Shown one piece after another: positions 6,826-33,940 of a stretch of 64,000 nt of DNA. The notes beneath the pieces were generated by a model that saw nothing but the letters and a program-made list of their open reading frames with translations, was not told where the DNA came from and did no database searches. The position numbers and the translations under genes are program-made. How positions within the stretch are numbered: the first letter of the stretch is position 1; every line of letters begins with the position of its first letter. This stretch comes from Mesorhizobium sp. PAMC28654 (GTDB lineage Bacteria; Pseudomonadota; Alphaproteobacteria; Rhizobiales; Rhizobiaceae): positions 4,774,001 to 4,838,000 of the forward strand of contig NZ_CP085135.1 of assembly GCF_020616515.1 (NCBI RefSeq), read 5' to 3'.

Positions 6826-6830
6826 GTGAC

Positions 6831-12290: not shown

Positions 12291-12339
12291 TGGTGATCCC
12301 GACAGGAATCGAACCTGTGACCTACAGATTAGGAATCTG
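12291..12339. repeat. attL: 49-bp copy of the tRNA-Arg 3' end
   Basis: Identical to 33864-33912. It holds the CCA end, T arm, variable loop and most of the anticodon arm of tRNA-Arg, but the D arm and 5' acceptor strand are missing, so it is not a functional tRNA. It marks the integrase-proximal island boundary. Confidence 0.95.
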
Positions 12340-12500
12340 TCTCGATAGCATTGATTGATATCGATATGCATACTAAAAACAGGCGCAAATCCTTGAAAAT
12401 GCACGATTTGTTTTGAAATTCGGATCGAAAGTCATCGTTCTGCATACTTGCGCATAATCGACGGAAGCGTTACCTTTAGTCACCTTTGGAGGTAACAGCC
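12340..12500. other. Integrase upstream region
   Basis: An A+T-richer 160-bp stretch between attL and the integrase with the palindromic bits ATTGATTGATATCGATATGCAT. It probably holds arm-type integrase sites and the int promoter. I cannot define individual sites by eye. Confidence 0.35.
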
Positions 12501-13838
12501 ATGCCGAAATTGAAGCTCACCGACGCCACGCTTAAAGCTCTCAAACCGCCACCCGCTGGCCAGGTTGATTATTTCGACAATCTCTTGCCGTCCTTCGGCG
12601 TTCGCGTGGCCTTCACCGGCACCAAAACCTTTTTCGTGTTCGACCGCGTAGGCGGAAAGCTCAAGCGCATGACCATTGGCCGCTATGGTCCTTCGCCCTT
12701 GTTTGGCCTGGCAGAGGCCCGAGAGAAGGCGAGAACCTTCAAGGCCAGTGCTGAACGCGGGGCCGATCCCGTCGATGAAGCGAAGCGCGAAGCTGCCGCA
12801 GCCGAGGCCAGCACGTTCGGCAAGGCGGTGGAAAGCTTTCTGGCGCGCCAGAAATCGAGGCTGGCTGCGTCAACCCTTCGTGAATACAAGAACTGCCTCA
12901 CCGGGCAGGACGTGGCCGATTGGAAGGACCGGCAAATATTCTCGATCAGCAAAGCGGACGTGAAAGGGGTGCTCGACAAGATCGACAAGCGCGGCAAACC
13001 CTCCGCCTGCAACCACGCGCTCGCCCATATTCGTCTGTTCTTCAACGACTGTATCGACCGCGACTTGATGGAACATTCTCCCGCAAACCGCGTGAAGGCG
13101 CTGCACGACAACACCAAGCGCGACCGCGCCTTGTCTGCCGATGAACTGGCCATCGTGGCGGCAGCGCTCCGCGATGACGACGCCACGTTGTGCGTCATGT
13201 ACGGCGTCAACGATGTACCACCGCTGTCCGACACGCTCCGCGACTATTTCCTAACCCTCATGCTCACCGGCCAACGGCGCGCCGAAGTCGCCGGCATGAC
13301 ATGGGATGAGGTGCATGACCTCACCGGCAAAGACCCGCGTTGGGAGTTATCCGGCAATCGCACCAAGAACGGCTTGCCGCATATGGTGCCATTGTCGCCT
13401 ACGGTCGCCGCGATCTTACAACGACGCAAGGCATTGGGAGATGCCGAGAGGCGGAAAGCGGAGGCACTGGCGAAGCGAGACGGCGGCGAAGCGCTGGCAA
13501 AGCTCAACAGCGATGCGGTCTTCGCCGGCACCCTGCACAACACCAATCGCGCAAAGGTCGCCCTTGACTCCCGCGTAACCGCTGTGGCCAAGGCCATGGG
13601 CCGTCCCGCCCTTCCACACTGGACCGGCCACGATCTGCGGCGAACGATGGTCACAGGGATGAACGAAATGGGCATCGCCCCGCATGTTGTCGAGGCGGTT
13701 GTGAACCATATCAGCGGAGCGGCAAAGGCTGGCGTGGCTGGTGTGTATAACAGGGCGCTGTATCTGCCTGAGCGCCGGGCAGCATTGAATGCGTGGGCGC
13801 ATCATGTCGCGGCCTTGGAGCCGACGCGGGCGAGCTGA
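12501..13838 (+). CDS. Tyrosine recombinase / island integrase (P4-type)
   Basis: A 445-residue integrase with a DUF4102-like arm-binding N terminus (LTDATLKALKPP, LLPSFGVRVAFTGTKTF, MTIGRYGP), a SAM-like core-binding domain at about 105-200, and a catalytic domain with Arg 259/260 (GQRRAEVAGM), His377-x-x-Arg380 (GHDLRR), His403 (VNHISG) and nucleophile Tyr416 (GVYNRALY). TTGGAGG sits 8 nt before ATG 12501; an in-frame TTG at 12486 falls in that ribosome site and is not the start. It is next to attL in a tRNA gene, so it catalyses integration and excision of this island. All catalytic residues are present. Confidence 0.96.
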   Translation: MPKLKLTDATLKALKPPPAGQVDYFDNLLPSFGVRVAFTGTKTFFVFDRVGGKLKRMTIGRYGPSPLFGLAEAREKARTFKASAERGADPVDEAKREAAAAEASTFGKAVESFLARQKSRLAASTLREYKNCLTGQDVADWKDRQIFSISKADVKGVLDKIDKRGKPSACNHALAHIRLFFNDCIDRDLMEHSPANRVKALHDNTKRDRALSADELAIVAAALRDDDATLCVMYGVNDVPPLSDTLRDYFLTLMLTGQRRAEVAGMTWDEVHDLTGKDPRWELSGNRTKNGLPHMVPLSPTVAAILQRRKALGDAERRKAEALAKRDGGEALAKLNSDAVFAGTLHNTNRAKVALDSRVTAVAKAMGRPALPHWTGHDLRRTMVTGMNEMGIAPHVVEAVVNHISGAAKAGVAGVYNRALYLPERRAALNAWAHHVAALEPTRAS

Positions 13839-15025: not shown

Positions 15026-17236
15026 ATGCCCATTCAGTCTAATGAAACTGATTGCAAAAAGCGATCAGTTTCATCCAAGCTTGCCGCCGCGCGCTGGCTC
15101 ATCGACCACTACCCCGAGTGCAACCTCTTTCCGGTCACGCCGGGCCAGAAAACGCCGCCGCTGTTCAAGGACTGGCCGTCCAGGGCCTCACGCGATCCGG
15201 CCAAATTGCAGAAATGGTTCGGCGGGCCTCACCCGGCTAATATCGGCATTGCCTGCGGTCGCGTTGTGGTGCTGGACCTGGACTGCAAGAACGGACTGGA
15301 CGGGGTGGCCGTCCTGGATGCTATGGCAAAGGAAGCCGGCGAAGCGCTCCCCGATGGGCCTGTCCATTCGACGCCGACCGGCGGCAAGCATCGCCTCTAT
15401 CTCGTCGAGGGCGTCAAACTTTCTAACAGCGTCGGCAAGCTTGGACTGAACGTGGCGCGCCGTCTCGGGCTGGCCGGTCCCGATGGCGAAAGCAGCGGCA
15501 TCGACGTTCGGAGCTTTGGCGGCTATGTCGTGGCGCCAGGTAGCATCACCAACGCCGGGACGTACACTGTCGAACACAAGGCCCCGTTGCCCGACATGCC
15601 GCAATGGTTGATCGACGCAATCCTGGCCGCATCCGCGCAGGCCGAGCCGCGCAAGGCGCCGGAGGGCTTGGAACTGGACACGCCTGCCGCTATCGCCAAT
15701 ACCGCGCGCTACCTCGCTCTCGACGCCAAGCCGGCTATACAGGGCAGCGGCGGCGATGCGCAGACATACGCAGTCTGTGCCGGGGCCCGGGATTTCGGCA
15801 TCAGCGAGGCCGTGGCGCTCGACCTCTTGCTAGAGCACTATAATCCCCGCTGCATCCCGCCGTGGGAACCGGAGGACATGGCCGTAAAGGTGGCCAACGC
15901 CTACGCCTATTCTCAAAACGAGATAGGCGCCAAAAGCATCGAAGTCGAGTTTGGCGACCTGGATGCAGAGCGCGACGCCGAACTGCAACTGTGCAATGAC
16001 CTGGGCTTGGACGTGCCGGCGATGATCCGCACCGCCGCAGCGAATGCTAAAGCGAGGGCGGAGGAGGAGGACGGCGACGCCAAGTCTGTCACCTCGCGCA
16101 TCCACGCCGCGCCGTTTGTCTGGCGTGATCCCGCCACGATCCCGCCCCGCCAATGGCTGTTCGGGAACCACTATATTCGCGGCTTTGCCACCGGCACCGT
16201 TGCCCCTGGCGGCGCCGGCAAGACCGCTATGACACTGACCGAGGCGCTTTCTATGGCCACGGGGCGCGACCTCATCGGCGGCAACCCGAGGCCGGCGCCT
16301 CTGAAGGTTTGGATATGGAACCTTGAAGACCCTGCCGAGGAAGTCGAGCGGCGCTTTGCCGCCGCCGTTCAGCATCACGGCATAGAGCCGGCCACGCTGA
16401 ACGGCCAACTGTTCGTCAACTCGGGACGCGACACGCCGCTTGTGATCGCCAAGAAAGTCCGCGAGACGATCACGGTGCTGGAGCCGGTCATCGACAACTT
16501 GGTGGCCGAAATCCGCGCCAACAGCATAGACGTGCTCATCATCGACCCATTCGTGAGCAGCCATAGCCTGCCGGAGAATGACAACGCGGCAATGGATGCC
16601 GCCGTCAAGGCATGGGCGCGTGTCGCTCACCTTGGCCGTTGCGCCGTCGAATTGGTGCACCACTCGCGCAAGCTTGGCAGGGAGGAAGCATCGGCGGAGA
16701 GCGCGCGCGGCGGCAGCGCCTTTGTCGACGGTTGCCGTGGCGTTCGCGTCATCAACCGCATGTCCAACGATGAAGCTGCCAGGCTTGGTATTTCAGAGCC
16801 GCGTCGGTTCGTCTGCATGGCGGACGACAAGCCGAACATGACGCCGCCGCCTGCCGGCAAGCGGGATTGGTTTCAGCTTGTGTCGGTGCAACTGCCGAAC
16901 GGCGACAACGTGGGAGCCGTCGACAAGTATACGCCGCCTAATCCACTTGACGACGTGACGCCGGATCACCTCGCCCGTGTCCAGGCCCTGTTTACGGGGG
17001 GTGCTTACCGGGAAAGCGATCAATCGCCGGAATGGGGCGGCTATGCTGTGGCCAGTGTGCTCGACCTCGACATCGGTGACAAAAGCGGTCGCACGCCGGA
17101 ACAGAACGCCGCACGGGCCAAGGTGAAGGACATTCTGCGCAAGTGGATGGCCGCCGAGGTGATCGGGATTGATACGCGCAAAGATCAGAACCGGGTGGCG
17201 AGGCGCTTTTATGCTGCATCGCCTGCAACACCCTAG
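15026..17236 (+). CDS. Bifunctional primase-polymerase / RepA-like helicase
   Basis: A 736-residue replication protein. Residues about 15-205 are a prim-pol domain: VVLDLDCKNG (metal-binding Asp 84 and 86), STPTGGKHRLY (His 122) and a later VVAPGSITNAG segment. A linker follows, then a RecA-fold AAA_25 domain with Walker A APGGAGKT (393-400), IWNLEDPAEEVERR and Walker B-like VLIIDPFVSS. This couples primer synthesis and unwinding, as in satellite phages and integrative elements, so the excised island probably replicates. It is the last gene of the HTH operon and is followed at once by iteron-like repeats that begin within its last codons. Confidence 0.92.
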   Translation: MPIQSNETDCKKRSVSSKLAAARWLIDHYPECNLFPVTPGQKTPPLFKDWPSRASRDPAKLQKWFGGPHPANIGIACGRVVVLDLDCKNGLDGVAVLDAMAKEAGEALPDGPVHSTPTGGKHRLYLVEGVKLSNSVGKLGLNVARRLGLAGPDGESSGIDVRSFGGYVVAPGSITNAGTYTVEHKAPLPDMPQWLIDAILAASAQAEPRKAPEGLELDTPAAIANTARYLALDAKPAIQGSGGDAQTYAVCAGARDFGISEAVALDLLLEHYNPRCIPPWEPEDMAVKVANAYAYSQNEIGAKSIEVEFGDLDAERDAELQLCNDLGLDVPAMIRTAAANAKARAEEEDGDAKSVTSRIHAAPFVWRDPATIPPRQWLFGNHYIRGFATGTVAPGGAGKTAMTLTEALSMATGRDLIGGNPRPAPLKVWIWNLEDPAEEVERRFAAAVQHHGIEPATLNGQLFVNSGRDTPLVIAKKVRETITVLEPVIDNLVAEIRANSIDVLIIDPFVSSHSLPENDNAAMDAAVKAWARVAHLGRCAVELVHHSRKLGREEASAESARGGSAFVDGCRGVRVINRMSNDEAARLGISEPRRFVCMADDKPNMTPPPAGKRDWFQLVSVQLPNGDNVGAVDKYTPPNPLDDVTPDHLARVQALFTGGAYRESDQSPEWGGYAVASVLDLDIGDKSGRTPEQNAARAKVKDILRKWMAAEVIGIDTRKDQNRVARRFYAASPATP

Positions 17237-20035: not shown

Positions 20036-21520
20036 ATGGTTATCGTGGACCGCTCGACACAAAAGGAATACGACGTGAACGCCTCACCGAATGAAATTGA
20101 AGGTGCGCTCGACTTGAGCAGCTTGGACGCGGCTCGCGAGAGTGCGGTCCGTCTACAAAGAGACAAGCAGCTTGTCAGCGCCACGCGCGACGCCGGTTTT
20201 TTTGCACGTATTGAAAGGCTTTGGAACGCTGCTCGCGACAAAGACGGTGTCGATCTGTTGAAAGCGGTCTCATTGCTTTTTCGGATATCCGCAGTTGCCA
20301 AGCACGTCAGGCCCCGATTCGAGGATTTGGTGTCTCAGATCGCGAATGTCCCTGCTGCAAGCCCGCAGACATTGGTTGAGAGCGATGACCGTCGCTATCT
20401 GGGCGAGGGTCTCAGGTTTGCGTCTGGCTCGTGGAAAGCGAACTACGCAGCGCAAGCAGCGGTCGAGGAGGTATCAGGAGAAGAAGCCCGCGAGCAATTT
20501 GTAGCTGTTTTGGTAGAAAGTGTGGGTAGTCTTGGAGGTGCCCTTCAAGCCTTGCGCTTCGAATTCGACTCCTGGCGGGTTGATACGCAGGACGTCGGGG
20601 CTAGTCGCGCTCGGAGGATGGCGCGAATTGTCTCTTGTCTCAAGAGAATAGTGATCGAGCAAGATCCGGAGGTCGGCAACGACGTGGGAGCTGCTCTCCT
20701 GGCATTTGCGCGATCTGCGATTGCAGGTGAGCCAATTTTAGACGTCAGTGCTCGCGTGCAAGCGGCCGAGGCGCTGTTGGACCTTGCTTCAAGTATCGTT
20801 CGTTTTCATTTTTCGATTGCTTCGGATTCCGAGACATACGCGGTAGTTGCCTTTGTGCGGCGTTGGTTTCCTTCGGACAACCCCCCGACCGAGCTACAAC
20901 CTATTCTAAATATCGTCGGGAGGCAGGTCCTAGAGGCTCTAATTTTCCTTGGCAAACAGGGCGTCCCGAACGATCAACTTCGGAGGACGTTTCTGTTGGT
21001 CCTCGGTGAATCCCGTGGATTGGTCGAGCTTCGGCAGGTCGGCAGCGAATTACCGGGGATTCCGGAAGAATTGCGCCACTGGTTTCTGTCCGGTAGGCTA
21101 AGTAGCGTCAAACTCGCAACCAATGACGCTGTCGATGAAACAGCGTTAAGGACTATCGACAGGGATATTGCCTATCTGTTCCGAGACGCGTCCGATCTAG
21201 TCGCAACCCTAGACCGAATAGAGGACGATCTTCCTGCTGCGATGTCGAATTACGAGCCGAGGCTTGTCCCGAGCGTTACGCGCCTCAGCGAGGGGGTTAA
21301 GCGAATCACGCAACGAGTGAATGTGGTAGCGGCGCGACGGCAAATGCGATTTGGCGGAATGATCGGCCAACTCGTCGATTTCAATCCTGTTGACCATGAA
21401 CTGCCTTTCGAGAGCTTGAAGGGAAGCGTTGCCAAGATTAAGCTTCCTTCCGTGATTAAAGGGGCCGAAGGGGCGCCGCCGATCGTTATTTTAAAGGCGG
21501 AAGTTGAGGGGGATGGCTAG
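20036..21520 (+). CDS. Unknown protein, partner of an Hsp70-like ATPase
   Basis: I do not recognise this 494-residue protein. It is mostly helical, with no membrane segment and no catalytic motif I can name. The C-terminal third has a coiled-coil-like part around YLFRDASDLVATLDRIEDDL and ends in a beta-rich tail (PPIVILKAEVEGDG). It is followed after 3 nt by an Hsp70/actin-fold ATPase gene, so the two probably work together. G+C is visibly lower than the flanking genes. An in-frame GTG at 20075 has a better ribosome site (AAAGGAATACGAC) than the ATG at 20036, so the true start may be 13 codons later. Confidence 0.75.
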   Translation: MVIVDRSTQKEYDVNASPNEIEGALDLSSLDAARESAVRLQRDKQLVSATRDAGFFARIERLWNAARDKDGVDLLKAVSLLFRISAVAKHVRPRFEDLVSQIANVPAASPQTLVESDDRRYLGEGLRFASGSWKANYAAQAAVEEVSGEEAREQFVAVLVESVGSLGGALQALRFEFDSWRVDTQDVGASRARRMARIVSCLKRIVIEQDPEVGNDVGAALLAFARSAIAGEPILDVSARVQAAEALLDLASSIVRFHFSIASDSETYAVVAFVRRWFPSDNPPTELQPILNIVGRQVLEALIFLGKQGVPNDQLRRTFLLVLGESRGLVELRQVGSELPGIPEELRHWFLSGRLSSVKLATNDAVDETALRTIDRDIAYLFRDASDLVATLDRIEDDLPAAMSNYEPRLVPSVTRLSEGVKRITQRVNVVAARRQMRFGGMIGQLVDFNPVDHELPFESLKGSVAKIKLPSVIKGAEGAPPIVILKAEVEGDG

Positions 21521-21523
21521 CCA

Positions 21524-23203
21524 ATGGAAATTGATACAGCGCGGATTTTAACAGCTAACTTACTTGATCGCGTGTCTGCTGCGAGTGACGGACGTACGTA
21601 TCGGCTTGACGGAGCGATCACTCAAGGAGAGCTGGACGCGTTAAATCTGCTTGCTGGGCGGGCATCGGTGCCCGTTTCACCATCAGAGCCGAGGGCAACG
21701 CAAGGGTTGGATCATGCCACCAGCGTCACGCGCACCTCCGAAACGAATTCCTTAGCAGCAGTGCCCATCATCGGCAAAGCTAAGCTGGAAACGGCAGCCC
21801 TTGTTGCCGAGGCTGATCCGACTGTCTTCGCTTGCATCGACTTCGGAACTGCTTTCTCCAAGGCGGCAGTTTGGAAAAGCGACGACTCCAGGCCCATTCC
21901 GCTCGACTTGGAGCAGGCTGGATCGGGGACCCCTGGCTTCACGATCCCATCTTCAGTCTACATAACTGGAAATTCGGTCTTCTTTGGCCATCGGGCACTG
22001 GAAGAAAGCAGGCGCGAGAACAATCCAGCCAGAGAGCGCTTCGACTCACCTAAGCAATGCTTAAGCATAGATGACCCAGACGACATCGATAGGGAAAGCG
22101 TCGGCGTTGCAATTGACCCGTCCCAAACGTTTACTCGGGGCGATCTACTCAGACTATATCTCGCCTATTTAACGTCGTGCACGGCTGAGCGGATGGAGGC
22201 CCATGGATTATCTCGGCACACTCAGCGACGATTTGCAATACCGGTTTGGCGTGGAAAGCAACTCGAATCGGCCTCGTCGCTGCTACGGCGTTCGTTGCTG
22301 GAAGCTCAAGTGATTGCGGACAGCGTTGATCCTGAGGTCTGGGGGAAGGGGATCTCGATTTCGTTTGCCAAGTCGCTTTTGAACGCACTTCCTGACTTGG
22401 ATGCTGAGCTAATTGCAAATTCAGAAACGGTGCTAGACCATGTCTTGGAACCGATGGCTGCTGCGGCTGGTTTGACGGATCATGTTCGCAACAAGAAGGC
22501 TCGTGTGCTGGTCGCCGACATCGGCGCAGGGACGAGTGACTTCGGGGCCTACCAGTTCGTTCTTCCTGCGGCTGGACGCGCCCGAGCGCATCCGTTCTTG
22601 AACAGCGAAAGCGCGTTAAAGCAAGCTGGCAATCGTCTCGACGAGTTTCTAATACGGTTCATCGTTGAAAGGAGTGGAACGCCGGTCGGTTCAGACGCAG
22701 CCGTACGGATCGCTAAGTTTCTAATGAGAGACATTCGCGAAACGAAGCAAACGCTTTTCACGGTAGGTAGCGTTTTTGTCAGCATTCCCGACTTCTTTGA
22801 CATGACCATTACGCGCGATGAGTTCTCGCAGGATCCTCACGTAACTCAATTTGGCAGAACAATCGGTGGGCAAATTGCGAAGACAATTGAGAATGCTGGT
22901 GCAAAGAACTTCACGGAGGACGGGGTAAGCACCTATGCAATTCTTACAGGAGGCGGCGCCGGCCTCCCGATGATTCGCGACCTATTCAATGCTCCTTTTC
23001 CCACCAGTAGCGGAGACGTTAGCCTCCGGTTGGTGGATGCGACGCCAGACTGGGCTCTCGACGCGGGGGATGACGTACTTGCTATATTTCCTCAACTGGC
23101 CGTATCGAGCGGGGGCTCGTCTCCCGACCTTATTGAAGTGCGCTCATCCGTTAGCGATTTGACACAAGCGCCCCGGAGGGTTTGGGGACCAAGGTGGACT
23201 TGA
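21524..23203 (+). CDS. Hsp70/actin-fold ATPase
   Basis: A 559-residue protein with the three nucleotide-binding signatures of the DnaK/actin fold: phosphate-1 DFGTAFSK (106-113), phosphate-2 DIGAGTSD (332-339) and adenosine motif TGGGAG (475-480). A non-conserved extension of about 95 residues precedes the fold, and the substrate-binding domain of true DnaK is absent, so it is not a housekeeping chaperone. FFGHRALEESRRE resembles other Hsp70-like proteins of bacterial islands. It pairs with the 494-residue gene (3-nt gap, shared low G+C). Function is unknown; a sensor or switch role in defence or stress is inference. Confidence 0.85.
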   Translation: MEIDTARILTANLLDRVSAASDGRTYRLDGAITQGELDALNLLAGRASVPVSPSEPRATQGLDHATSVTRTSETNSLAAVPIIGKAKLETAALVAEADPTVFACIDFGTAFSKAAVWKSDDSRPIPLDLEQAGSGTPGFTIPSSVYITGNSVFFGHRALEESRRENNPARERFDSPKQCLSIDDPDDIDRESVGVAIDPSQTFTRGDLLRLYLAYLTSCTAERMEAHGLSRHTQRRFAIPVWRGKQLESASSLLRRSLLEAQVIADSVDPEVWGKGISISFAKSLLNALPDLDAELIANSETVLDHVLEPMAAAAGLTDHVRNKKARVLVADIGAGTSDFGAYQFVLPAAGRARAHPFLNSESALKQAGNRLDEFLIRFIVERSGTPVGSDAAVRIAKFLMRDIRETKQTLFTVGSVFVSIPDFFDMTITRDEFSQDPHVTQFGRTIGGQIAKTIENAGAKNFTEDGVSTYAILTGGGAGLPMIRDLFNAPFPTSSGDVSLRLVDATPDWALDAGDDVLAIFPQLAVSSGGSSPDLIEVRSSVSDLTQAPRRVWGPRWT

Positions 23204-23491: not shown

Positions 23492-26167
23492 ATGCTTGGG
23501 CTGACTTTACGCGAAGAATTTCGAGGCAAGCGCCTCAAAGGCACATCCATCGAGCTGTCCAACGATCAGCATACTGGTGCAACCCAGATTGCAGCCAAGC
23601 AGTTCCTGGAAATCACCTATCCCACGCATGACCTGCTGAAGGGCATCGAGGCCGTCGGCCCTAACCAGGGCCGTCCCGTGGTCGTAATCGGCGAACGCGG
23701 TCTCGGTAAGTCGCACTTGTTGGCCGCGCTCTACCACGCGGTGACTGATCCAGCATCGACCGGGGCGTGGCTCAAAGAGTGGGCTACCAAGCTGGCTGAC
23801 CCAGGTATCGGCAGCATCGCGCTACGTGACGGGATGTATGTCATCGGCGAAAGCCTGCACCGTCAGCGCTACAAATTCTTATGGGACGTGCTGTTCGAGA
23901 ACCACCCGCACGGCCCCTTCATCAAGGGCAAGTGGGAAGGCCAAGGCGAATCCAAGACCGAAATCCCGTCCGACAAGCTCATTATCGAGCTGTTGGAGAA
24001 TAAGCCGACGATGCTGCTGCTGGACGAGTTCCAGACGTGGTTTGACGGTCTCACCAACACCAAGCAGTATCCGTGGAAGCACTGGGCGTTCAACTTCATC
24101 CAGATCCTTTCGGAGATTGCCAAGGAACGCCCCGACCTCCTGGTACTGGTGATCTCAGTGCGGAATGGCGGAAGCGATGCCTACCAGCAGGTGCATCGCG
24201 TCAACCCGGTCGCCATTGACTTCAAAGCAGGCGGTAGCGCCGAACGCATCCAGCAGGATCGTCGCCGGATGCTGCTCCACCGCCTGTTCGACAACCGCTT
24301 GCAGATCGCCAACGGCACGATTGAATCGCTGATTGCCCCGCATGTCTCCGAGTCTTTCCGTCTCCTCGCCGTGCCCCCGGCCGAGCAGGAGCGCAAACGT
24401 CAGGAGTTCACCGAATCCTGGCCCTATTCAACACACCTGCTGCGGTTGCTCGAAGAACAGGTGCTGATCGCCACCGACGCGCAGGAAACGCGAGACCTGA
24501 TCCGAATCCTCGCGAACCTTTACAAGAGTCGCGGTGAGGCCGTCCCGCTGCTCACCGCTGCTGACTTCCGGCTGGACGAAGATTCCTCGGGTATTGGCGC
24601 ATTGCTGGAAGCCGTGGCCAACCAGCATCACCGCACGTTGCGCGAGAAGGCGCAGCAGAACATTATCTCGGTGACAGAGGCAAGGCACGACCACGCCAGT
24701 ATCGTACCGCATCTGCAAGAAATCGTCGGCGCGTTGTGGCTGCGCTCGATTGCCGTGGGCAATCTCGCCGGCGCTGAACCAGCCACTCTGCAACTGGACA
24801 TTACCCGCACTAAGCCGGTGGACGACAACGCCTTTCAGGTCGAGCTGGCAACCATTGTCGAGAACAGCTTCAACATTCACCAGGAAGGCATCAAGCTGCT
24901 GTTCCGGGAGCAAGAGAACCCGCGCGCCAAATTGATAGCTTATGCGCGCAACGACAAGTTATTCGCCGATGGCGCCGACCAGGCTCAGCTTGCCAAACAG
25001 ACGCGCTATGTCATCGCCGGCAGCGACGAGGTGGCCAAGACCTTTCGCGTAATCGCTTTGCCGAAATCATGGGGCAGCGATCCGTGGAAATCGCTCGACG
25101 ACGCCGAGCATCCTGACAGATGGGATGACCGTCTTCCCATTCTGGTGCTGCCCGAAGAGCCGGACAAGCTCGACGCCACGCTTGGGCGTTGGCTCATAGA
25201 CCAACTGCAGAAACGCCGCAACACGGTGCGCTTCCTGCTGCCGCGCGCGGGCAGCATAAACGCCTTTCTGGATCGGGATCTGCTCATCCTCGCCCGCGCC
25301 GAAATGAAGGCGCAGGAATGGGGTAGCCAGAACCCCGAGTACAAAAAGCTGCATAAGGAATTCGAGAACACCCTCCGCGACAACCTCAAGAAGCGGTTTG
25401 ATCGATTCGCCGTTCTGCAACGCTGGAATTTTACTGATCCTGCACAGTGCAAGTTCAGCGTCGAGCGTCTCGACAAGCAGGGATCTCAAATTCCCGAGGC
25501 TATCGAAGAAGCCCTGGTAAACGACCTATTCGTGCCGGAGGACTTCGAGGAGTTGGTGCTCGAATTTGCCAACAATAACGAAGCGGTCGGCAAGCTGCTG
25601 CGGGAACTGCAAGAGCCGCGCCCATCTGGGCAAGACTGCATTCCGTGGTTGGGCGAAACGGCGATGAAAGAGCGCCTTTTACGCCAGTGCGCCAGGGGCA
25701 AGATCGCGCTCAACGTGCGTGGCATGGAGTACCTGCAAACCCATCCGGGCGAAGATGAAGACACCGCCTGGCGACGCTTGCGGCCAAGGCTCTCGCTCAC
25801 AGGCCGTCATCTCGATGATGTGTTTGTGATGCTTCCTTCAGCAGTGCCTGCGACAGGCGGCTCTATGCCACCGGGGCCATCGCCCACAGGTGGCGGACTT
25901 TTCGGTGGCGACGGCACAACGCCCTCCGGCCCACCAGCATCTGGAGGCGAGACAGCTACCAGCGATCCCTCCGCGCCCACGCCGGGGGGCATCTTCGGTG
26001 GCGCCACCACGGGCGCCAAACCGCGCACTCCGCTGTCCAACCCGGCTACGTCGCCGCTGAACCTGATTGGAAAGATCGAAGGCTGGGGCATTGGCCCGGC
26101 CACGCGCGTGACCGAGGTCGATCAAACTGCCTGCCGCCAACGGCGCGCAGCTCAAGGAACTGCTTAG
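23492..26167 (+). CDS. DUF499-type AAA+ ATPase, C terminus frameshifted
   Basis: An 891-residue ATPase from ATG 23492. Walker A is GERGLGKS (67-74) and Walker B LLLDEF (175-180), with arginine-rich AGGSAERIQQDRRRMLLHRL later; this layout matches the large DUF499/COG1483 ATPases of defence islands. About residues 785-850 form a Gly/Pro/Thr-rich linker. The current frame ends TEVDQTACRQRRAAQGTA, but the +1 frame from 26124 reads KLPAANGAQLKELLRRLPDG, then MTFELNLEKEDD, ending in TGA at 26220-26222 that overlaps the next ATG. An extra base near 26117-26124 would explain this. The ATPase core is intact. It is expected to power a methylation/restriction-type complex with the next genes. Confidence 0.85.
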   Translation: MLGLTLREEFRGKRLKGTSIELSNDQHTGATQIAAKQFLEITYPTHDLLKGIEAVGPNQGRPVVVIGERGLGKSHLLAALYHAVTDPASTGAWLKEWATKLADPGIGSIALRDGMYVIGESLHRQRYKFLWDVLFENHPHGPFIKGKWEGQGESKTEIPSDKLIIELLENKPTMLLLDEFQTWFDGLTNTKQYPWKHWAFNFIQILSEIAKERPDLLVLVISVRNGGSDAYQQVHRVNPVAIDFKAGGSAERIQQDRRRMLLHRLFDNRLQIANGTIESLIAPHVSESFRLLAVPPAEQERKRQEFTESWPYSTHLLRLLEEQVLIATDAQETRDLIRILANLYKSRGEAVPLLTAADFRLDEDSSGIGALLEAVANQHHRTLREKAQQNIISVTEARHDHASIVPHLQEIVGALWLRSIAVGNLAGAEPATLQLDITRTKPVDDNAFQVELATIVENSFNIHQEGIKLLFREQENPRAKLIAYARNDKLFADGADQAQLAKQTRYVIAGSDEVAKTFRVIALPKSWGSDPWKSLDDAEHPDRWDDRLPILVLPEEPDKLDATLGRWLIDQLQKRRNTVRFLLPRAGSINAFLDRDLLILARAEMKAQEWGSQNPEYKKLHKEFENTLRDNLKKRFDRFAVLQRWNFTDPAQCKFSVERLDKQGSQIPEAIEEALVNDLFVPEDFEELVLEFANNNEAVGKLLRELQEPRPSGQDCIPWLGETAMKERLLRQCARGKIALNVRGMEYLQTHPGEDEDTAWRRLRPRLSLTGRHLDDVFVMLPSAVPATGGSMPPGPSPTGGGLFGGDGTTPSGPPASGGETATSDPSAPTPGGIFGGATTGAKPRTPLSNPATSPLNLIGKIEGWGIGPATRVTEVDQTACRQRRAAQGTA

Positions 26168-26221
26168 GAGGCTGCCCGATGGCATGACCTTCGAGCTGAA
26201 CCTTGAGAAAGAGGACGACTG

Positions 26222-27211
26222 ATGGTCCTGGCCGTCAGCCTGTTGCACGCCTTGGCGCAAGGTACGGACGCCGACGCCTGGAGCGCCATCGTCAACCACG
26301 CGGTTGAGATCGCATCGAAGCCCTTGGCCGCAGGAAATGCGCCCAGCGAGGTCGTCAAGCGCGATCGTGAAATCGGTGAACTGGATTTGTTCCTTTCCTC
26401 CTGCGGTTGGGATTTGTGGCAAGCCTTCGGCGGCAGCGTAGAGCGGACCTCCGATCGCTTGCTTCGCTGGTGGACCGAACCCTTCAGCGCAAAGGCGGTG
26501 TTGATCCTCGATGGTCTTTCGTTGCGTGAACTGCCGTGGCTGTTGCAGGGAGCGAAGGAGCGCGGTTTCACCCTTCATAGAGTCGAGGCCAACGCCTCTG
26601 AACTGCCCGGCGAAACCGACGAATTCGCCCACGCGCTCGGCTTTGCCAGCCGCAGCAAGCTACAGAACAATGGCGGCGGCTCGGCTCACAAACTGCAACC
26701 GGCGCAGACGGAAACCGTCGATCTGCCGTGGAAGGACTGCGAATCCTTGGTCGGTAGCACACCGAACCAAATCTTCTGGCACCACTGGCCCGACGCCAAG
26801 CTGCACGATGGATCCGGTGCAGGTCAGGGATTGGAGCCCCTAACGAAGGATACGGCCGAGCAACTGAGCGGCGACGATTTCTGGGCCTTCGTCGAACGTC
26901 TCGCTACCGGGCGGCGGCTGGTCATCACTTCCGACCACGGCTACGCGGCCACCGGCTACTTCCCCGATGCAGAGGGCGAGGTCGGCCAGTTCCTAAAGCA
27001 GACGTTTTCCAGCGGGCGCAGCAAGCCGGGTATGGTTGACACCGGTCCCTTCGTGCCCCCCGTGGCATTGCGGATCAGCAGCCCGCGCGGCGCGTCCCTG
27101 TTGGCCTTGGGTCGCAGGAAGTGGCGCAGCCAAGGCGGCTACCCGACGCTCACCCATGGTGGCCTGTCGCTACTGGAAGTGCTGTCGCCCTTCGTCGAGT
27201 TGACCAGGTAA
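26222..27211 (+). CDS. Short PglZ-domain protein (alkaline-phosphatase fold)
   Basis: A 329-residue protein with the PglZ/alkaline-phosphatase superfamily metal motifs: VLILDGLSLRE (Asp 97), VITSDHGYAATGY (Asp and His at 238-239) and LTHGGLSLLEV (His 312). PglZ is a hallmark of BREX/Pgl defence, where it is usually about 800 residues; here only the phosphatase-like domain remains, which may be normal for DUF499-linked systems. The ATG at 26222 overlaps the frame-restored stop of the ATPase (TGATG). The methylase starts 12 nt after its stop. Confidence 0.85.
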   Translation: MVLAVSLLHALAQGTDADAWSAIVNHAVEIASKPLAAGNAPSEVVKRDREIGELDLFLSSCGWDLWQAFGGSVERTSDRLLRWWTEPFSAKAVLILDGLSLRELPWLLQGAKERGFTLHRVEANASELPGETDEFAHALGFASRSKLQNNGGGSAHKLQPAQTETVDLPWKDCESLVGSTPNQIFWHHWPDAKLHDGSGAGQGLEPLTKDTAEQLSGDDFWAFVERLATGRRLVITSDHGYAATGYFPDAEGEVGQFLKQTFSSGRSKPGMVDTGPFVPPVALRISSPRGASLLALGRRKWRSQGGYPTLTHGGLSLLEVLSPFVELTR

Positions 27212-27223
27212 GGATCGCGGTTT

Positions 27224-30200
27224 ATGGCCACCAAAAAAGAACTGCTCGCACAAGAGGTTGCCAAGGCCGTCAGCGCCGGCAAGGCGGTTGCGCTGGAGAC
27301 CGTCGATTTCAACGACCCGAACCGCCCCAAGACCTGTCTGGAAGTGGATTTTCCCATCCTGCCGGTCAATCAGGTCGCGGTAATCGAAGGTAATGCGGGC
27401 AAGCCCATCTATCAGATGTCTAAGTGGTGGGCACGGCGCCGCTCCAGTGTGTTCCGCTCGATGTTGATCGCAGCGGCCACCAAAGCGCCGGACGATTCTT
27501 CTCACGCGGCCAAGCTGGTCTGGGACAACTACTACGCCAACCATCAGAAGCGCGGCGCGTTCAAGCACCTCAAGGTCGCTGACATCTTCATGGGTGGCGG
27601 GACAACGCTAGTCGAAGGGTCGCGCCTCGGAATGCAGATGGTCGGCAATGACCTTAACCCAGTGGCGTGGTTCGTGGTTAAGCAGGAACTGGCCGATGTC
27701 GATTTGGAGGAAGTGAAGAAGCTTCTCTCCGACATCGAAGCCGAGGTCAAACCGCAGATTATGCCGTACTACTACTGCGACGGACCGGAAGGCGAAAAAG
27801 GTCAATGGACACACCTGCCCAGTAACAAGCCGATGCCCACTGACTTCGACCCGCTCGTTATCCCGCGCGACGAGCGGAGGGACTATCGCTACGAAGGTCC
27901 GGAAGCGATCTACAGCTTCTGGACCAAGCACGGGCCGTGCCATGTAACGGGCTGTGGCCATCGCACGCCTATTATGACCAGCCCGGTGATAGCGGTGAAG
28001 ACGCTTACCGTCAAACATTGGGAACATACCTGCGGCAAATGCGGCGGTGGATTCCATGTCGAGGAAGAAGCCGCACGCATGGCCCCAGATTCGCCGCTCT
28101 ACATCTCACCCACCGAACATCCGTTTTCCGCGCTTGATCGCAAGAAGGGCGTGATCTGCCCGCACTGCAGTCACACGGCTCTGGTGAACTTGGGCAAGGG
28201 CAAGAACAAGAAGGTGGAACTGAGCCTTCTGGTGCATCCGCAATGGCTAGCAGGCGAGGCCAAACTGGATGCAAATGGCCGGCCCTACGGCGGGTCGGCG
28301 CAGGATGACGTAATTTCGACGACCCGGTGGGATCAGGCACGGGCCGCGAAGGCTCGCCTACTTGAAGTGCGCGGCGTGCTCCCGGATGAAGTGATCTGCT
28401 CGGAAATCAATAATACCTTCAAAACAGGTATTGGCACGGTACCAAAGTCGGCATATTTCACTTGCGGAGCCTGCGGCACGGTGCAGCGCATCGTGAAGTC
28501 AGTCGATGCTACTAAGAAGACTGCGCCAGCTAGCATCTTTGCGGTTCAAGGCTACGCACCGAGGCGTGCTAAAGCCGGCAAGCCCTATGGCGGTCGTTTC
28601 TTTGCCCCTTGGAATGAAGCACTGGCGCGGCAGTACGATGCCGCATTTGCGGAATGGGAAACGCGCAAGGATACCGACCTGAAGGACTATTGGCCAAGGA
28701 GTGAGATCCCGTTTGGCCACATGACTCATCAGCGACAGCCGCTGCCCCAACACGGCTACCTCAACTGGTCCGACATGTTCAATCCGCGTCAGTTGCTCGT
28801 TCATGCGCAGCTACTGAAGACTATCTTGAATGTTGGCAGCTACGATTGGAAAGTTCGGGAGTTTGTGCTTGGCGCTTACCAACAGTACCTGCGCAACCAG
28901 AATATGTTCTGTTTCTGGGACATCAGTAGGGATTGTCTCGCACCCCACTTGAGCAACAATAATTTCCATCCCAAAAACAACGCTGTTGAAAATTGCGTCT
29001 TTTCTGCTCTCGGCCGTGGAAACTGGGCATCCAGCGTCGAAGGCATCGTGCAAGGACGCGAATGGGCGGTTCAGCCCTGGGACTCCGTAAGCTTTGATAC
29101 GCTGAAGCGACATTCTCCAGGTCTCGGCGAACAGATTTGGGGGAAGAGCGAGAAGGTCTTCCCCGGGGATTTGGTCGGCGAGGTCGAGGTGTACCAGAGC
29201 TCATCCACCGACCTCACGCACATCGCCTCGGCGAGCGTTGATCTGGTTATCACCGATCCGCCGTTTGGCGGCCTTCTGCATTACTCAGAGCTGTCCGATT
29301 TCTTCTACGTTTGGCTGCGGCTCGCGCTGAAAGATAAGTACCCCGACTACTTCCGGGCCGAATACACGCCCAAGTCGCTGGAAGCAGTTGCCAATCGCGC
29401 GCGCGAGCCGGAAGACCCCGATGGCTTCTATCAGCGCTTGCTCACGCAGTGCTGGCGCGAAGCGCACCGCGCACTCAAGCCCGGTGGCATCCTCGCCTTC
29501 ACCTTCCACCATAGCGAGGACGAGCCGTGGGTGGCAGTGCTGGAATCGCTGTTCGACGCGGGTTACTACCTCGAAGCCACGTACCCGATCCGCTCCGACG
29601 AAACCAAGGGCGAAGGCGAGTTTGGCTCAAAGACCATCGAGTACGACATTATCCACGTTTGCCGTAAGCGCATCGAGGAACCCAAGCCGGTAAGCTGGGG
29701 TCGGATGCGGCGCGAGGTGATGGCCGATGTGCGCCAATTGCAGGCCATGCTTGAGAACCATGCAAAGGAAGGCCTGCCCGCTGCGGACCTCCAGGTCATT
29801 CGGCGTGGCAAGGCGTTGGAATATTTCTCGCGTCATTACGGCAAGGTCTATGTTGATGAAGGGCGCACCATCGGGGTCAGGGAAGCACTCATAGGCATCA
29901 ATCAACTCATCGACGAGGATTCCGACAAAGGGAAGGAGCCGCCACCGGTCAACGCCGAGCCGATCACGCGCCAATTCTTGCGTACCTTTAGTAACGGGGC
30001 CGATCTCCAGCGCGACCAGTTGCAGAAGTTCTTGAAAGGGTCGATCATAACGCCGGACGAGTTTGTGCAGCGCGGCTGGTGCGCGGAGAAGAACAAGATT
30101 TTCATCCGTACCGACCCGCTAGAATTCGCGCGAGAATGGTCGGGCAAGCACCGCCGCCGCCTGACTTCCGATATGGATCAGGCGTTGGTGCTGATCGGTG

Positions 30201-30433
30201 CGTGCTTCGACGGCAGTGGGATCGACGCCTCGGGCACGTTGAAGAATGAAAACTTCAAACCACACGTTGCGCTGAAACCACTGCTGGAATGGATCCAGCG
30301 CAACGGTCCGGATCAAATCGCCCGCAAGGCGGCCTCGCGTGCGGTGTCGATCTACGACGCATGGCGAGCCAGCGAGGCGCCCAAGCCCGTACAGGGTTCG
30401 TTGTTCGATGACTATGAGGAATACGAACGATGA
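27224..30433 (+). CDS. DUF1156 adenine-specific DNA methylase with zinc ribbons
   Basis: A 1069-residue methylase. The DUF1156 N terminus has LPVNQVAVIEGNAG and KPIYQMSKWWARRR; SAM motif I is DIFMGGGTTL (120-129) followed by GNDLNPVAW; the catalytic motif is DPPFGG from about residue 678, suggesting N6-adenine methylation. Between them are Cys/His clusters (GCGHRTP, CGKCGGG, CPHCSH, CGACG) that form Zn ribbons, as in COG1743 proteins. Such methylases modify host DNA to mark self in BREX-type-3 or DISARM-like systems. The ATG has AAGGA upstream and the stop overlaps the next start (ATGA). Confidence 0.93.
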   Translation: MATKKELLAQEVAKAVSAGKAVALETVDFNDPNRPKTCLEVDFPILPVNQVAVIEGNAGKPIYQMSKWWARRRSSVFRSMLIAAATKAPDDSSHAAKLVWDNYYANHQKRGAFKHLKVADIFMGGGTTLVEGSRLGMQMVGNDLNPVAWFVVKQELADVDLEEVKKLLSDIEAEVKPQIMPYYYCDGPEGEKGQWTHLPSNKPMPTDFDPLVIPRDERRDYRYEGPEAIYSFWTKHGPCHVTGCGHRTPIMTSPVIAVKTLTVKHWEHTCGKCGGGFHVEEEAARMAPDSPLYISPTEHPFSALDRKKGVICPHCSHTALVNLGKGKNKKVELSLLVHPQWLAGEAKLDANGRPYGGSAQDDVISTTRWDQARAAKARLLEVRGVLPDEVICSEINNTFKTGIGTVPKSAYFTCGACGTVQRIVKSVDATKKTAPASIFAVQGYAPRRAKAGKPYGGRFFAPWNEALARQYDAAFAEWETRKDTDLKDYWPRSEIPFGHMTHQRQPLPQHGYLNWSDMFNPRQLLVHAQLLKTILNVGSYDWKVREFVLGAYQQYLRNQNMFCFWDISRDCLAPHLSNNNFHPKNNAVENCVFSALGRGNWASSVEGIVQGREWAVQPWDSVSFDTLKRHSPGLGEQIWGKSEKVFPGDLVGEVEVYQSSSTDLTHIASASVDLVITDPPFGGLLHYSELSDFFYVWLRLALKDKYPDYFRAEYTPKSLEAVANRAREPEDPDGFYQRLLTQCWREAHRALKPGGILAFTFHHSEDEPWVAVLESLFDAGYYLEATYPIRSDETKGEGEFGSKTIEYDIIHVCRKRIEEPKPVSWGRMRREVMADVRQLQAMLENHAKEGLPAADLQVIRRGKALEYFSRHYGKVYVDEGRTIGVREALIGINQLIDEDSDKGKEPPPVNAEPITRQFLRTFSNGADLQRDQLQKFLKGSIITPDEFVQRGWCAEKNKIFIRTDPLEFAREWSGKHRRRLTSDMDQALVLIGACFDGSGIDASGTLKNENFKPHVALKPLLEWIQRNGPDQIARKAASRAVSIYDAWRASEAPKPVQGSLFDDYEEYER

Positions 30434-30936
30434 GACCGCTGCTGGACACGGTGTGGCAGCGGCGCGGCACCAGTTGGATATGGGATGAGGAAGCACGTAA
30501 CCAGATCTGCGCGGCCAGCGAGGTCTGGAGCTTGCGTCAGTTTCTGCGCGCCGCGCGGGAACCGGGGTACTGGCCGGAGGACCTGCCGAGTAACGACGAC
30601 CAGACGCTGGCTGTCGCCGGGCTGGATGGCAGCCTCGACCTGCTCACGTCGACGGATGCCGAAACATGGCTGGGCGATGTGGTTAAGCCCGCCGTGCTGT
30701 CGTTTCAGGATGCCTACGCGGGCGGCGCGGCGCTGGTGTTCTGGCTACCCAGCGGCCAGAACCGCATCAGAGTGCAGGCGTCCACCGACGCGGTGAGTTG
30801 GCTATGCCACGCCCCTCACGGACATCAAATCGACTTTGGCCGCGTCCTGTGGGGTGAGGCTAACGAGTACCCACAGGAAATCCTGCTGCACAATGGCGGA
30901 AAGTCCGCTGGTTTGTTCCATCTACGGATTACTTGA
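30430..30936 (+). CDS. Unknown protein of the methylase-helicase operon
   Basis: A 168-residue soluble protein with many Trp residues (SWIWDEE, EVWSLRQFL, YWPEDLP, AVSWLCHAP, GRVLWGE). The middle (LVFWLPSGQNRIRVQ) and the end (FHLRI) look beta-rich. I do not recognise a family. It overlaps the methylase stop by 4 nt and lies 9 nt before the helicase, so it is a built-in component, perhaps a small adaptor or specificity factor. Confidence 0.75.
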   Translation: MRPLLDTVWQRRGTSWIWDEEARNQICAASEVWSLRQFLRAAREPGYWPEDLPSNDDQTLAVAGLDGSLDLLTSTDAETWLGDVVKPAVLSFQDAYAGGAALVFWLPSGQNRIRVQASTDAVSWLCHAPHGHQIDFGRVLWGEANEYPQEILLHNGGKSAGLFHLRIT

Positions 30937-30945
30937 GGGACGCGT

Positions 30946-33714
30946 GTGACGGCAGAGTTGCAGTTCCAACCCGGCGAGCGCATCACGCACCACGAATACG
31001 GCCAGGGTGTTGTTCTCGATCCAGTTCGTGACGGCTACCTGCGCGCCTTCTTCGCTGTCGGAGAGCGCCTAGTGCCTGTCGCCTCACTGCGCCGCGAAGT
31101 TACGCGCACCGAACGTATCCTGCGCGCCGTGGATGGTAGCGCGGAGCGCGGCCGTAGGGCATGGCTGTCCTATGAGGCTCATGCGCTTCCATTGATGGAA
31201 AGTGCCTCGGCGCTGACCTCGGCCAAGATCGACCTGCTGCCGCATCAGGTGGTGTTGACGCATCGTGTCGCTACCGCGTCACCCCGACGCTATCTGATCG
31301 CCGACGAGGTGGGCCTGGGCAAAACCATCGAAACCGCGTTGATCTTGCGCGAACTTGCAAGCCGGGGCGAACTGAACCGTGCGCTGATGGTCGTGCCCGC
31401 TGGCCTGGTGAACAACTGGCATCGCGAATTGAACGAGGTGTTCAACCTCGATTTCGAGGTGTTCGGCTCCGAGGGCGACATTACCGATCGCAAGACAAAT
31501 GCCTTTGCCAAGCACGACCGGCTGATCGCCAGCATCGACACGCTGAAGCGCCCGGCGCGCATCAAACGGCTACTGGATGCACCGCGTTGGGATTTGACGG
31601 TGTTCGACGAAGCCCATCACCTGACCGCCTACCGCACTGGTGGCAAGGTGCGGAAAACCGAGAACTACAAGCTGGCCGAGGCGCTCAAAGATCATTCGCG
31701 CGATCTCCTGTTGCTTTCGGCAACGCCGCACCAAGGAAATCATTTCCAGTTCTGGATGTTGGCGCAGTTACTGAATCCTACGCTGTTCCGTAGCCCCGAG
31801 GAGATGGTGGAGAACCGGCATCGGCTCAATACGGTGATGTTCCGCCGCACTAAGGCCGATGCTTGCCAGCCAGATGGCTCACCGTTGTTTGCCCGACGTT
31901 GGGTCCACACCGAATCCTTCGTGATGGCGCAGGGCGAACGACTATTTTACGAAAAGCTGCGCGAATATCTTGAGGACGGCTTCGACCTTGCGCGTCGCCG
32001 GGGCAATCAGGGGCGCGCGCTAGGCTTCCTGATGGCGATCTTCCAGAAGATCGCAGCGTCCAGCTTCGCTGCGGTGCGCCGCACGCTCAAACGGCGGCTT
32101 TTGATGCTGACGTTGCATGAGGCGCTGCTGCGCGACAAGGAACTGGACATCGAGGGCCGCGAGCGGTTGATTGGCGAGGCGCGAGCGCTGATCCACGAGG
32201 AGTTCGATCTGCCGCGCGACAGTGTTGGACGCAGCGAGGTGGACCGCGTCCTGGCCGACCTGAAATACCGATTGGTCAAGAAACTGGACGAGGAGGCTCT
32301 GGAGATGGCCTCCGATCCCTACGACAGTGAATATTCCGCCATGCACGCGGAAGAAGCTGCCTCAGCGGTGGTAAATCTGCATCTGCCCGAAGAGCGTCTG
32401 CGTATCGGCGACCTGCTGGGCGTGTTTCCGCCGGAGCGCGAAACCAAAATGCAGAAACTACTCGACGGCTTGGGGACGCTGTGGCGGCAGAACCAGAACG
32501 AGAAGATCGTGATCTTCGCCACCTATCTCGGCACGGTGGATATGATCGCCCGCGAAATCGAGCAGACCTTCCCTGGCCAGGGTGTGGCGGTTTTGCGCGG
32601 TGGAGATCACGGAGCCAAGCTGGCGGCGGAACGTCGCTTCCGCCAGAAGGATGGCCCGCGCGTGTTGGTCTGCACGGCGGCGGGACGCGAAGGCATTAAC
32701 CTGCAATTCGCACGCATCTTGTTTAATTTCGATCTGCCGTGGAACCCCATGGATATGGAGCAGCGCATCGGGCGCATCCATCGCTACGGCCAAAACCATA
32801 CGGCGCAGGTATATAACCTCGTGCTATCAGACACTATCGAGGGGCGCATTTTCCTGCTGCTGGACGAGAAGCTGACCGAGATTGCGCGGACAGTCGGCAA
32901 GGTCGATGAACAAGGCAATATCGCCGAAGACCTGCGGGCGCAAATTCTTGGGCAGTTGTCCGAGCGGTTGAACTATGATCGCTTGTATCAGGAGGCGCTA
33001 TCCGATCCCGAACTAAAGCGCACCCAGGTGGAACTGGAAGCTGCGTTGTCGAACTCCCGCGAGGCGCGGCAGGTAGTGTTCGACCTTTTCCAAAATCTCG
33101 ACGGGTTCAGCCTGGATGACTACAAGCCGTTCTCGGATGTGTCGTCCAGTCTGGACCGGCTGGTACGCTTCCTTGCAGCCGCAGTCGTTGACCGTCAGCA
33201 GAAACTGGTGAAGGTGGATGATGCCACCTACGATCTCGTCACCGCTCAAGGTACACATCGGGCTCGCTTCACCTTGAGCCGAGAGGCCGCAACAAATCAG
33301 GATGATCTGCAACTGATGGGCTTGGACCACCCGCTGGTCCAGGAGGAGTTGGGGCGCTGGCGTAGCTTGCCACCGGAGGAAATTGGCATAGCCGTGTCAG
33401 GTGAAGTGGACGAGCCGGTGTTGCTGTCGCTTTGGATGGTGGAGACGTCGGCGGGAAACGGCGAACGTCGCGTGGTGGTGCAACCCATCGCGGTAAAGCA
33501 AGATGGCACGCGCGTCCCGGCGGTCGAGCGTTTGTGTGAAAACTATCTACAGGCGCCGGCCACAACGCCGACCTTCCAACCTCAGCAACGAAGCGATCTG
33601 TTCACCCACGCCGTTGAGCCGACCTTACAACGGGAACTGAAGCACAAGGGAGCCGTGAACGACGACGGCAGCTATTCGGCCGAGTTAATTGGCTACGTCG
33701 AGATCGTAGGCTGA
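30946..33714 (+). CDS. SNF2/RapA-like helicase
   Basis: A 922-residue superfamily-2 helicase. An N-terminal CarD/RapA-like beta segment (GERITHHEYGQGVVLDPV) precedes the motor: Walker A DEVGLGKT (120-127), DEAH (221-224), SAT (258-260), and in the second RecA lobe ILFNFDLPWNPMDMEQRIGR with IHRYGQ (motif VI about 606-616). This is the SNF2 layout seen in DrmD of DISARM and in RapA. In the operon it would translocate on DNA for the DUF1156/PglZ complex. GTG start at 30946 after GAGGGA. It is the last gene, ending about 150 bp before attR. Confidence 0.93.
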   Translation: MTAELQFQPGERITHHEYGQGVVLDPVRDGYLRAFFAVGERLVPVASLRREVTRTERILRAVDGSAERGRRAWLSYEAHALPLMESASALTSAKIDLLPHQVVLTHRVATASPRRYLIADEVGLGKTIETALILRELASRGELNRALMVVPAGLVNNWHRELNEVFNLDFEVFGSEGDITDRKTNAFAKHDRLIASIDTLKRPARIKRLLDAPRWDLTVFDEAHHLTAYRTGGKVRKTENYKLAEALKDHSRDLLLLSATPHQGNHFQFWMLAQLLNPTLFRSPEEMVENRHRLNTVMFRRTKADACQPDGSPLFARRWVHTESFVMAQGERLFYEKLREYLEDGFDLARRRGNQGRALGFLMAIFQKIAASSFAAVRRTLKRRLLMLTLHEALLRDKELDIEGRERLIGEARALIHEEFDLPRDSVGRSEVDRVLADLKYRLVKKLDEEALEMASDPYDSEYSAMHAEEAASAVVNLHLPEERLRIGDLLGVFPPERETKMQKLLDGLGTLWRQNQNEKIVIFATYLGTVDMIAREIEQTFPGQGVAVLRGGDHGAKLAAERRFRQKDGPRVLVCTAAGREGINLQFARILFNFDLPWNPMDMEQRIGRIHRYGQNHTAQVYNLVLSDTIEGRIFLLLDEKLTEIARTVGKVDEQGNIAEDLRAQILGQLSERLNYDRLYQEALSDPELKRTQVELEAALSNSREARQVVFDLFQNLDGFSLDDYKPFSDVSSSLDRLVRFLAAAVVDRQQKLVKVDDATYDLVTAQGTHRARFTLSREAATNQDDLQLMGLDHPLVQEELGRWRSLPPEEIGIAVSGEVDEPVLLSLWMVETSAGNGERRVVVQPIAVKQDGTRVPAVERLCENYLQAPATTPTFQPQQRSDLFTHAVEPTLQRELKHKGAVNDDGSYSAELIGYVEIVG

Positions 33715-33863
33715 CACGCGATTCGAAATCAAGTTCGGTACCGGCATTTTGCCCTGCGCCCACAGGACTACGATTGTCCCCTTGAAGCCTTGCCGTCGAG
33801 AATTTTGTTACCTGCTGCGTTACCTATGTGGCGGAGCGGATACCTGGAAATCCAGCTAAGTGC
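33715..33863. other. Gene-free right end of the island
   Basis: 149 bp between the helicase stop and attR. No gene, no clear terminator hairpin and no repeat was recognised apart from the short CTGGAAATCCAG palindrome at 33844-33855. Confidence 0.4.
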
Positions 33864-33912
33864 TGGTGATCCCGACAGGAATCGAACCTGTGACCTACAG
33901 ATTAGGAATCTG
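33864..33912. repeat. attR: 49-bp direct repeat inside tRNA-Arg
   Basis: Identical to 12291-12339; it covers the CCA end through the anticodon arm of the intact tRNA gene. The matches stop at 33912/33913, defining the longest common core. Confidence 0.95.
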
Positions 33913-33940
33913 CCGCTCTATCCTACTGAGCTACGGGACC
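33864..33940 (-). tRNA. tRNA-Arg (anticodon CCT)
   Basis: A 77-nt tRNA with encoded CCA on the minus strand. The 7-bp acceptor stem is GGTCCCG with CGGGATC (one G-T pair), the D stem GCTC/GAGC, the anticodon stem GCAGA/TCTGT with loop TTCCTAA, and the T arm CACAGGTTCGATTCCTGTC. The anticodon at loop positions 34-36 is CCT, reading AGG. The 3' half is the integration site of the island, and integration restores the gene. Confidence 0.97.

Follow-up and report, generated by a model that had tools for sequence, protein, structure and literature searches.

What kind of system do five consecutive, rightwards-transcribed genes in Mesorhizobium sp. PAMC28654 encode, and does it fall outside the classes already known? 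The genes lie in the 64,000-nt stretch analyzed here as the window (contig NZ_CP085135.1, positions 4,774,001–4,838,000, forward strand), and the initial annotation proposed them as a compact candidate defence system that is neither canonical BREX nor DISARM, composed of a DUF499 ATPase, PglZ, a DUF1156 methylase, a 168-residue protein (p168) and an SNF2 helicase. We conclude that the operon is very probably a member of the Type-3 BREX-related (BR) systems, carried on an integrative island at a tRNA-Arg gene and working as modelled below. These DUF499-centred systems were described from genomes in January 2026 and appear to be defined by computation only (Rakesh & Krishnan 2026, PMC12839542); the kind of system is already published, and the window provides a further example. 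The operon features, in window coordinates, are as follows.

23492–26167, + strand: DUF499/BrxC-like AAA+ ATPase, frameshifted, 891 aa (DUF499 match, Walker A/B, C-terminus comparison)
26118–26222, + strand: conserved ATPase C-terminus, displaced into a different frame (translation matches the relatives' tails)
26222–27211, + strand: predicted stand-alone PglZ phosphodiesterase/nuclease, 329 aa (motifs, predicted fold)
27224–30433, + strand: predicted DUF1156 N6-adenine methyltransferase, 1069 aa, with an exchangeable recognition region at ~361–700 (N6_N4_Mtase, HmaB, NF042963)
30430–30936, + strand: p168, 168 aa, candidate inactive STAND (BrxB/BrxF-like) subunit (AlphaFold2, weak P-loop fold matches)
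30946–33714, + strand: SNF2/BrxHII-type helicase, 922 aa (PADLOC, NCBIfam, motifs)

The five open reading frames are consecutive on one strand, as first described; the gaps measure 54 nt (ATPase–PglZ), 12 nt (PglZ–methylase) and 9 nt (p168–helicase), and the methylase and p168 genes overlap by 4 nt. The spacing of about 12 nt or less originally given for all of them fails at the ATPase–PglZ junction, where 54 nt follow the in-frame ATPase stop. The motifs read in the initial annotation are located in the sequences: the ATPase has its Walker A motif, GERGLGKS, at residue 67 and its Walker B motif, MLLLDE, at 174; the methylase has DPPF (678) and CxxC pairs (270, 312 and 414), and in addition FMGGGT at residue 122; and the SNF2 motor has DEVGLGKT, DEAH and SATP. 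PADLOC, run on eight window proteins as the defence-system classifier that had been called for, gives BrxHII, HmaA and HmaB matches.

Four of the five proteins can be placed by family, domain or fold. The ATPase barely passes the Pfam DUF499 model (PF04465; 23.1 bits, cut-off 23), and its relatives carry the DUF499 annotation in NCBI records. The SNF2 assignment of the helicase is supported by Pfam, NCBIfam and PADLOC (BrxHI/BrxHII, E 4e-101; NCBIfam DrmD, E 2e-90, under the cut-off); the protein is RapA-like, and Pfam gives helicase domains only, ResIII being part of the motor, so that there is no nuclease fusion, as in Type-3 BR. The methylase matches N6_N4_Mtase (Pfam, E 5e-7, over the cut-off), HmaB (PADLOC, E 5e-37) and DUF1156_antiphage (NF042963, E 5e-26, under its cut-off), which upholds its assignment as a DUF1156 methylase, although the DUF1156 domain itself scores under the Pfam cut-off (E 0.008). 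It has the Type-3 BR arrangement of an N6-methyltransferase with N-terminal DUF1156 and a nested zinc-finger recognition insert; C270, C273, C312, C315 and C414 are present in 29 of 29 sequences, and C417 in 28 of them.

PglZ, whose length of 329 residues was correctly given, has no sequence match to PF08665, whether searched as a single protein, as 28 aligned members or across the whole genome, and a profile of it run with hmmsearch against the sequences of solved structures returned only PorX at E 0.98, ranked under two designed proteins. Its identity rests on motifs and predicted fold, the fold comparison having settled the identification. It is stand-alone, as in Type-3 BR, and conserves the residues of what we take to be the metal-site pattern of the PglZ superfamily. 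The same genome contains two further SNF2-like pieces, in open reading frames of 198 and 896 aa (G000:C1:5515246–5519829).

The same operon recurs in other genomes. A PglZ profile scan of genome contigs yielded 30 loci (L numbers below) out of 123 pattern matches, a lower bound because the scan relies on two peptide patterns. By tblastn, 27 of the 30 loci have the complete five-gene set in the same order on a single strand, and in L008, L009 and L026, which are cut by contig ends, the order agrees as far as the sequence goes; the gene order for which the initial annotation proposed a search is thus conserved elsewhere, far beyond chance. Protein identity to the window ranges from 41% (p168, L022) to 94% (helicase, L006). 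PglZ is present in two of 385 genomes of the window's class, the window's own genome included, and matches 43 records in a plasmid collection at E up to 0.01, of which 28 are from Klebsiella and 32 are typed as conjugative; none was found among 50,697 records of a phage collection at E 1e-5.

Two junctions within the operon hold additional genes, and one or the other slot is occupied in seven of the 30 loci. Between PglZ and the methylase, four loci carry inserts: an unassigned 315-aa protein (L004), an unassigned 249-aa protein together with a PIN protein (L020), SIR2 and HerA (L027), and AAA and subtilase (L029); SIR2 and HerA also occupy this slot on the Klebsiella plasmid L035. Between p168 and the helicase, inserts are found in four of the 28 loci holding both genes: AAA_21 and DUF4276 in L015 and L020 (the domain scan covering L015), a Schlafen-AlbA_2/TPR protein in L018, and a similar protein with a split frame in L032. 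Embedded back-up nucleases, including OLD-TOPRIM and Schlafen, are described across BREX and BR systems, with Type-3 BR either without them or limited in them (PMC12839542); SIR2, subtilisin and subtilase go unmentioned in the main text of that account.

Upstream of DUF499, similarity identifies a small helix-turn-helix (HTH) gene abutting the ATPase gene in 14 of 27 relatives, and inspection by eye adds L028; it was not found at this position in the window. In L030, a 298-aa protein directly upstream of DUF499 (6371–7267) resembles by eye what is presumably a WYL/BrxR-type regulator. On a haloarchaeal plasmid (L037, 7270–14742), genes for DUF499, a PglZ-like protein, a DUF1156 methylase and a small protein lie together; a DNA adenine methylase gene then takes the place of SNF2, for which the stretch examined has no annotated gene. 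The small protein weakly resembles p168 (pairwise E 0.007) and has the same operon position.

Scored in blocks of 30 residues, the methylase has a mean pairwise identity of 0.88–0.97 at residues 31–180 and 0.79–0.96 at 691–900, which falls to 0.50–0.71 at 391–660. We compared distances in each protein with those of SNF2 by Mantel tests (n = 25, being 24 relatives and the window with five full-length genes each; 500 permutations). Distances are coupled to SNF2 for PglZ (r 0.94), DUF499 (0.86), p168 (0.72) and methylase residues 666–1000 (0.67), each with p 0.002, and are uncoupled for methylase residues 391–520 (r 0.09, p 0.25) and 521–665 (r -0.11, p 0.73); for residues 1–200 r is just 0.31 (p 0.03). 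With the core distance removed, none of the 60-residue windows in the remaining four proteins tracks the recognition region (partial r -0.31 to 0.27). Individual pairs display the same pattern in their DNA: L012 and L013 are 42–63% identical over methylase codons 361–720, 77–85% in the flanks (201–360 and 721–840) and 80–100% elsewhere; L015 and L028 are 88–92% identical over codons 321–520, 38–72% over 521–760 and 67–74% over 41–120; and identity between L010 and L029 drops to 55–56% at codons 561–640. The recognition region is therefore exchanged independently of the other operon genes, a feature that the initial annotation had overlooked; target recognition domain swaps and recombination are not mentioned in the main text of PMC12839542.

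We give about even weight to the further proposal that the methylase is a self-contained cartridge for specificity, made up of two blocks, ~361–520 and ~521–700, that are exchanged separately and name the target, with the DUF499-PglZ-p168-SNF2 core constant. The two proposed half-inserts would then be comparable to the paired recognition domains of Type I specificity subunits. In 19 of 406 pairs the first half is at least 80% identical and the second at most 50%, but every such pair involves L013 or L015, so these represent few events. Not one of the 406 pairs shows the reverse pattern (first half at most 55%, second at least 75%), although L029 and L032 have second halves 0.86 identical and first halves 0.61. 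Among relatives with a common core, L010 (Dyella ginsengisoli LA-4) is 0.90 identical to L029 (Dyella lutea) in the first half and 0.62 in the second, and about 0.5 identical to L017 (Caenimonas sedimenti) in each half. Given the missing reverse pattern and the few events, the two-block proposal is supported mainly in one direction. If it is true, many targets are served by a single core, and the restricting complex must include the methylase.

How might the parts work together? In Type I BREX, PglX confers specificity for both methylation and defence (PMC11341690) and BrxB bridges BrxC and PglZ (PMC13326643), and by analogy the methylase is likely the site reader and PglZ likely the effector. 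The DUF1156 methylase would read its site through the exchangeable recognition region and methylate adenine in host DNA; it would double as the site reader for restriction, a role supported by the comparison above, in which none of the remaining components follows the recognition region. The DUF499 AAA+ ATPase and p168, as an inactive-STAND-like bridge, would form a core holding PglZ, and on unmodified invading DNA PglZ, acting as a metal-dependent nickase/phosphodiesterase, would cut or block with the SNF2/BrxHII motor assisting. We infer complex formation, adenine methylation, nicking and phage defence on this model, and the system probably marks host DNA and attacks unmarked phage DNA. Closely related natural operons have this core in common but vary in the recognition region of their methylases, and a methylome and host-range comparison of such operons would test whether the methylase alone aims PglZ-based defence. 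The system moves on an island and on plasmids and houses extra genes of defence-linked families; it is of interest for its insertion slots and for the naturally occurring series of recognition-region exchanges.

The window's own copy departs from the relatives in its ATPase, where a frameshift passed unnoticed in the initial annotation. The reading frame diverges after ...ATRVTEV and stops at 26167, without the conserved 34-residue C-terminal end, which is readable at 26118–26222 in another frame, ending in a stop that shares 1 nt with the PglZ start; because the matching C-terminal reading sits in another frame, we regard the gene as frameshifted. Among the 30 relatives' DUF499 copies whose C-termini were compared (L002 and L023 being partial), 28 remain in a single frame until a stop codon that overlaps the start of PglZ, the overlap being 1 nt in 26 of them and 4 nt in L021 and L033. 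Their tails resemble SIKVSAATGAQLKELLKKLPEGMTFELNLEKEDD, with small insertions in L018, L020 and L025; the L006 and L009 ATPases are split further upstream, and their second pieces bear the same tail. Programmed frameshifting of DUF499 was considered and rejected, since 28 of 30 relatives are single-frame to the PglZ start and L006 and L009 are split elsewhere.

With an ATPase lacking its conserved end, to which the Type-3 BR analysis assigns an RRM/ferredoxin-like domain (PMC12839542), the window's own copy may be impaired, and the frame error, which could be a genuine shift or an assembly error, may disable the system. That the operon is a decayed, non-functional remnant in this genome, which is compatible with Type-3 BR membership, we hold possible but somewhat doubtful: the other four genes match the full-length copies of 26–31 relatives in length, and the loss is limited to the last 34 ATPase residues, where a sequencing or assembly error could account for it.

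Less probable, and on balance unlikely, is a distinct five-gene system outside Type-3 BR, with p168 as a new subunit unrelated to BrxB or to inactive STAND (iSTAND) proteins. In its favor, p168 has no match in Pfam, NCBIfam or PADLOC, a profile of it run with hmmsearch against solved-structure sequences gave nothing useful, and the fold matches of its AlphaFold2 model (pLDDT 87) are weak; nonetheless, nearly all of these are P-loop NTPase folds, going by what we take to be the fold classes of the matched PDB entries. A Walker A pattern is absent from p168 in 29 of 29 sequences, the window included. It also varies more than the other four proteins (mean pairwise identity 0.72, versus 0.77–0.87), in agreement with the description of iSTAND subunits as fast-evolving, and its being encoded by a small gene of its own fits the 82% of Type-3 BR loci reported to have iSTAND as a separate gene (PMC12839542). 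The other four parts fit the Type-3 BR definition, including the nuclease-free helicase and the cysteine motifs in the methylase insert. Within a Type-3 BR system, p168 is a candidate for the inactive STAND partner of PglZ, although its fold test is weak.

The operon is part of an island whose ends, like a pair of PDC-M61 genes upstream, were not recorded in the initial annotation. Its other features are these.

12288–12339, strand not assigned: left island end, repeating the 3' part of tRNA-Arg (52-nt direct repeat, 98% identical to 33861–33912)
12486–13838, + strand: tyrosine integrase (Pfam Arm-DNA-bind_3, Phage_integrase)
15026–17236, + strand: primase-polymerase/AAA island protein (Prim-Pol, AAA_25)
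20036–21520, + strand: PDC-M61A, 494 aa, separate candidate module in the island (PADLOC, E 8e-44)
21524–23203, + strand: PDC-M61B, predicted actin/MreB-like ATPase, 559 aa (PADLOC, E 8e-96; MreB_Mbl, E 1e-4, under the cut-off)
33861–33912, strand not assigned: right island end, inside tRNA-Arg (direct repeat)
33864–33940, - strand: tRNA-Arg(CCT), integration target (ARAGORN)

The island spans 21.57 kb between the 52-nt repeats, and an IS4/IS5-type transposase gene (DDE_Tnp_1, DUF4096; 10663–11484) lies just outside its left end. Nine proteins match M61A at E<=1e-3, itself included, among 7992 candidates scored (database ~5.8 billion), M61B has no match in the plasmid collection, and the term PDC-M61 was not met in the papers listed by a literature search. 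That M61A and M61B join the five genes in a single seven-gene system here, with M61B as an actin-like upstream regulator, is highly improbable: the pair is on the same strand of the same island 288 nt from the operon, at the position where relatives often have the HTH gene that was not found in the window, but M61A/B are absent from all 30 relatives' loci (tblastn for M61A), 23 of which include at least 5.9 kb upstream of DUF499, PADLOC lists M61 as its own candidate system, and M61B is confined to the window's own genome among 385 of the class and 398 of the phylum.

How, then, does this operon compare with known systems? The initial description of a compact, BREX-like candidate on an island that is neither canonical BREX nor DISARM holds, given the gene order, the island ends and integrase, and the PADLOC matches. 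The helicase resembles DISARM DrmD, under the cut-off, but the DrmA and DrmD models match the helicase only, there is no DrmB or DrmC among the eight scanned proteins, and the window has PglZ and DUF499 instead. Pfam, NCBIfam and PADLOC give no BrxC, DUF6079, BrxA or BrxL in the five proteins, which BREX Types 1–6 would call for, themselves or as equivalents; BrxB, listed as missing in the initial annotation, may be present as p168. Type-3 BREX (BrxC, PglZ, PglXI, BrxHII, BrxF, BrxA) shares the BrxHII-type helicase, the nested-insert methylase and PglZ, but the window PglZ is stand-alone, its ATPase matches DUF499 and not DUF6079, and no scanned protein matches BrxA. Type-1 BR consists of helicase, methylase and ATPase only, with a nuclease mostly fused to the helicase (PMC12839542), and Hma (HmaA-HmaB-HmaC) likewise of helicase, methylase and ATPase (PMC8565338); these are of related families, and HmaA and HmaB models match the window, which adds PglZ and p168. 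The closest likeness is to Type-3 BR (PMC12839542), with its DUF499 ATPase, DUF1156 N6-methyltransferase, nuclease-free SNF2 helicase, stand-alone PglZ and small candidate iSTAND, from which the window differs in its frameshifted ATPase, and to which we add the exchange of methylase recognition regions, two slots within the operon, and an HTH gene that about half of the relatives have upstream.
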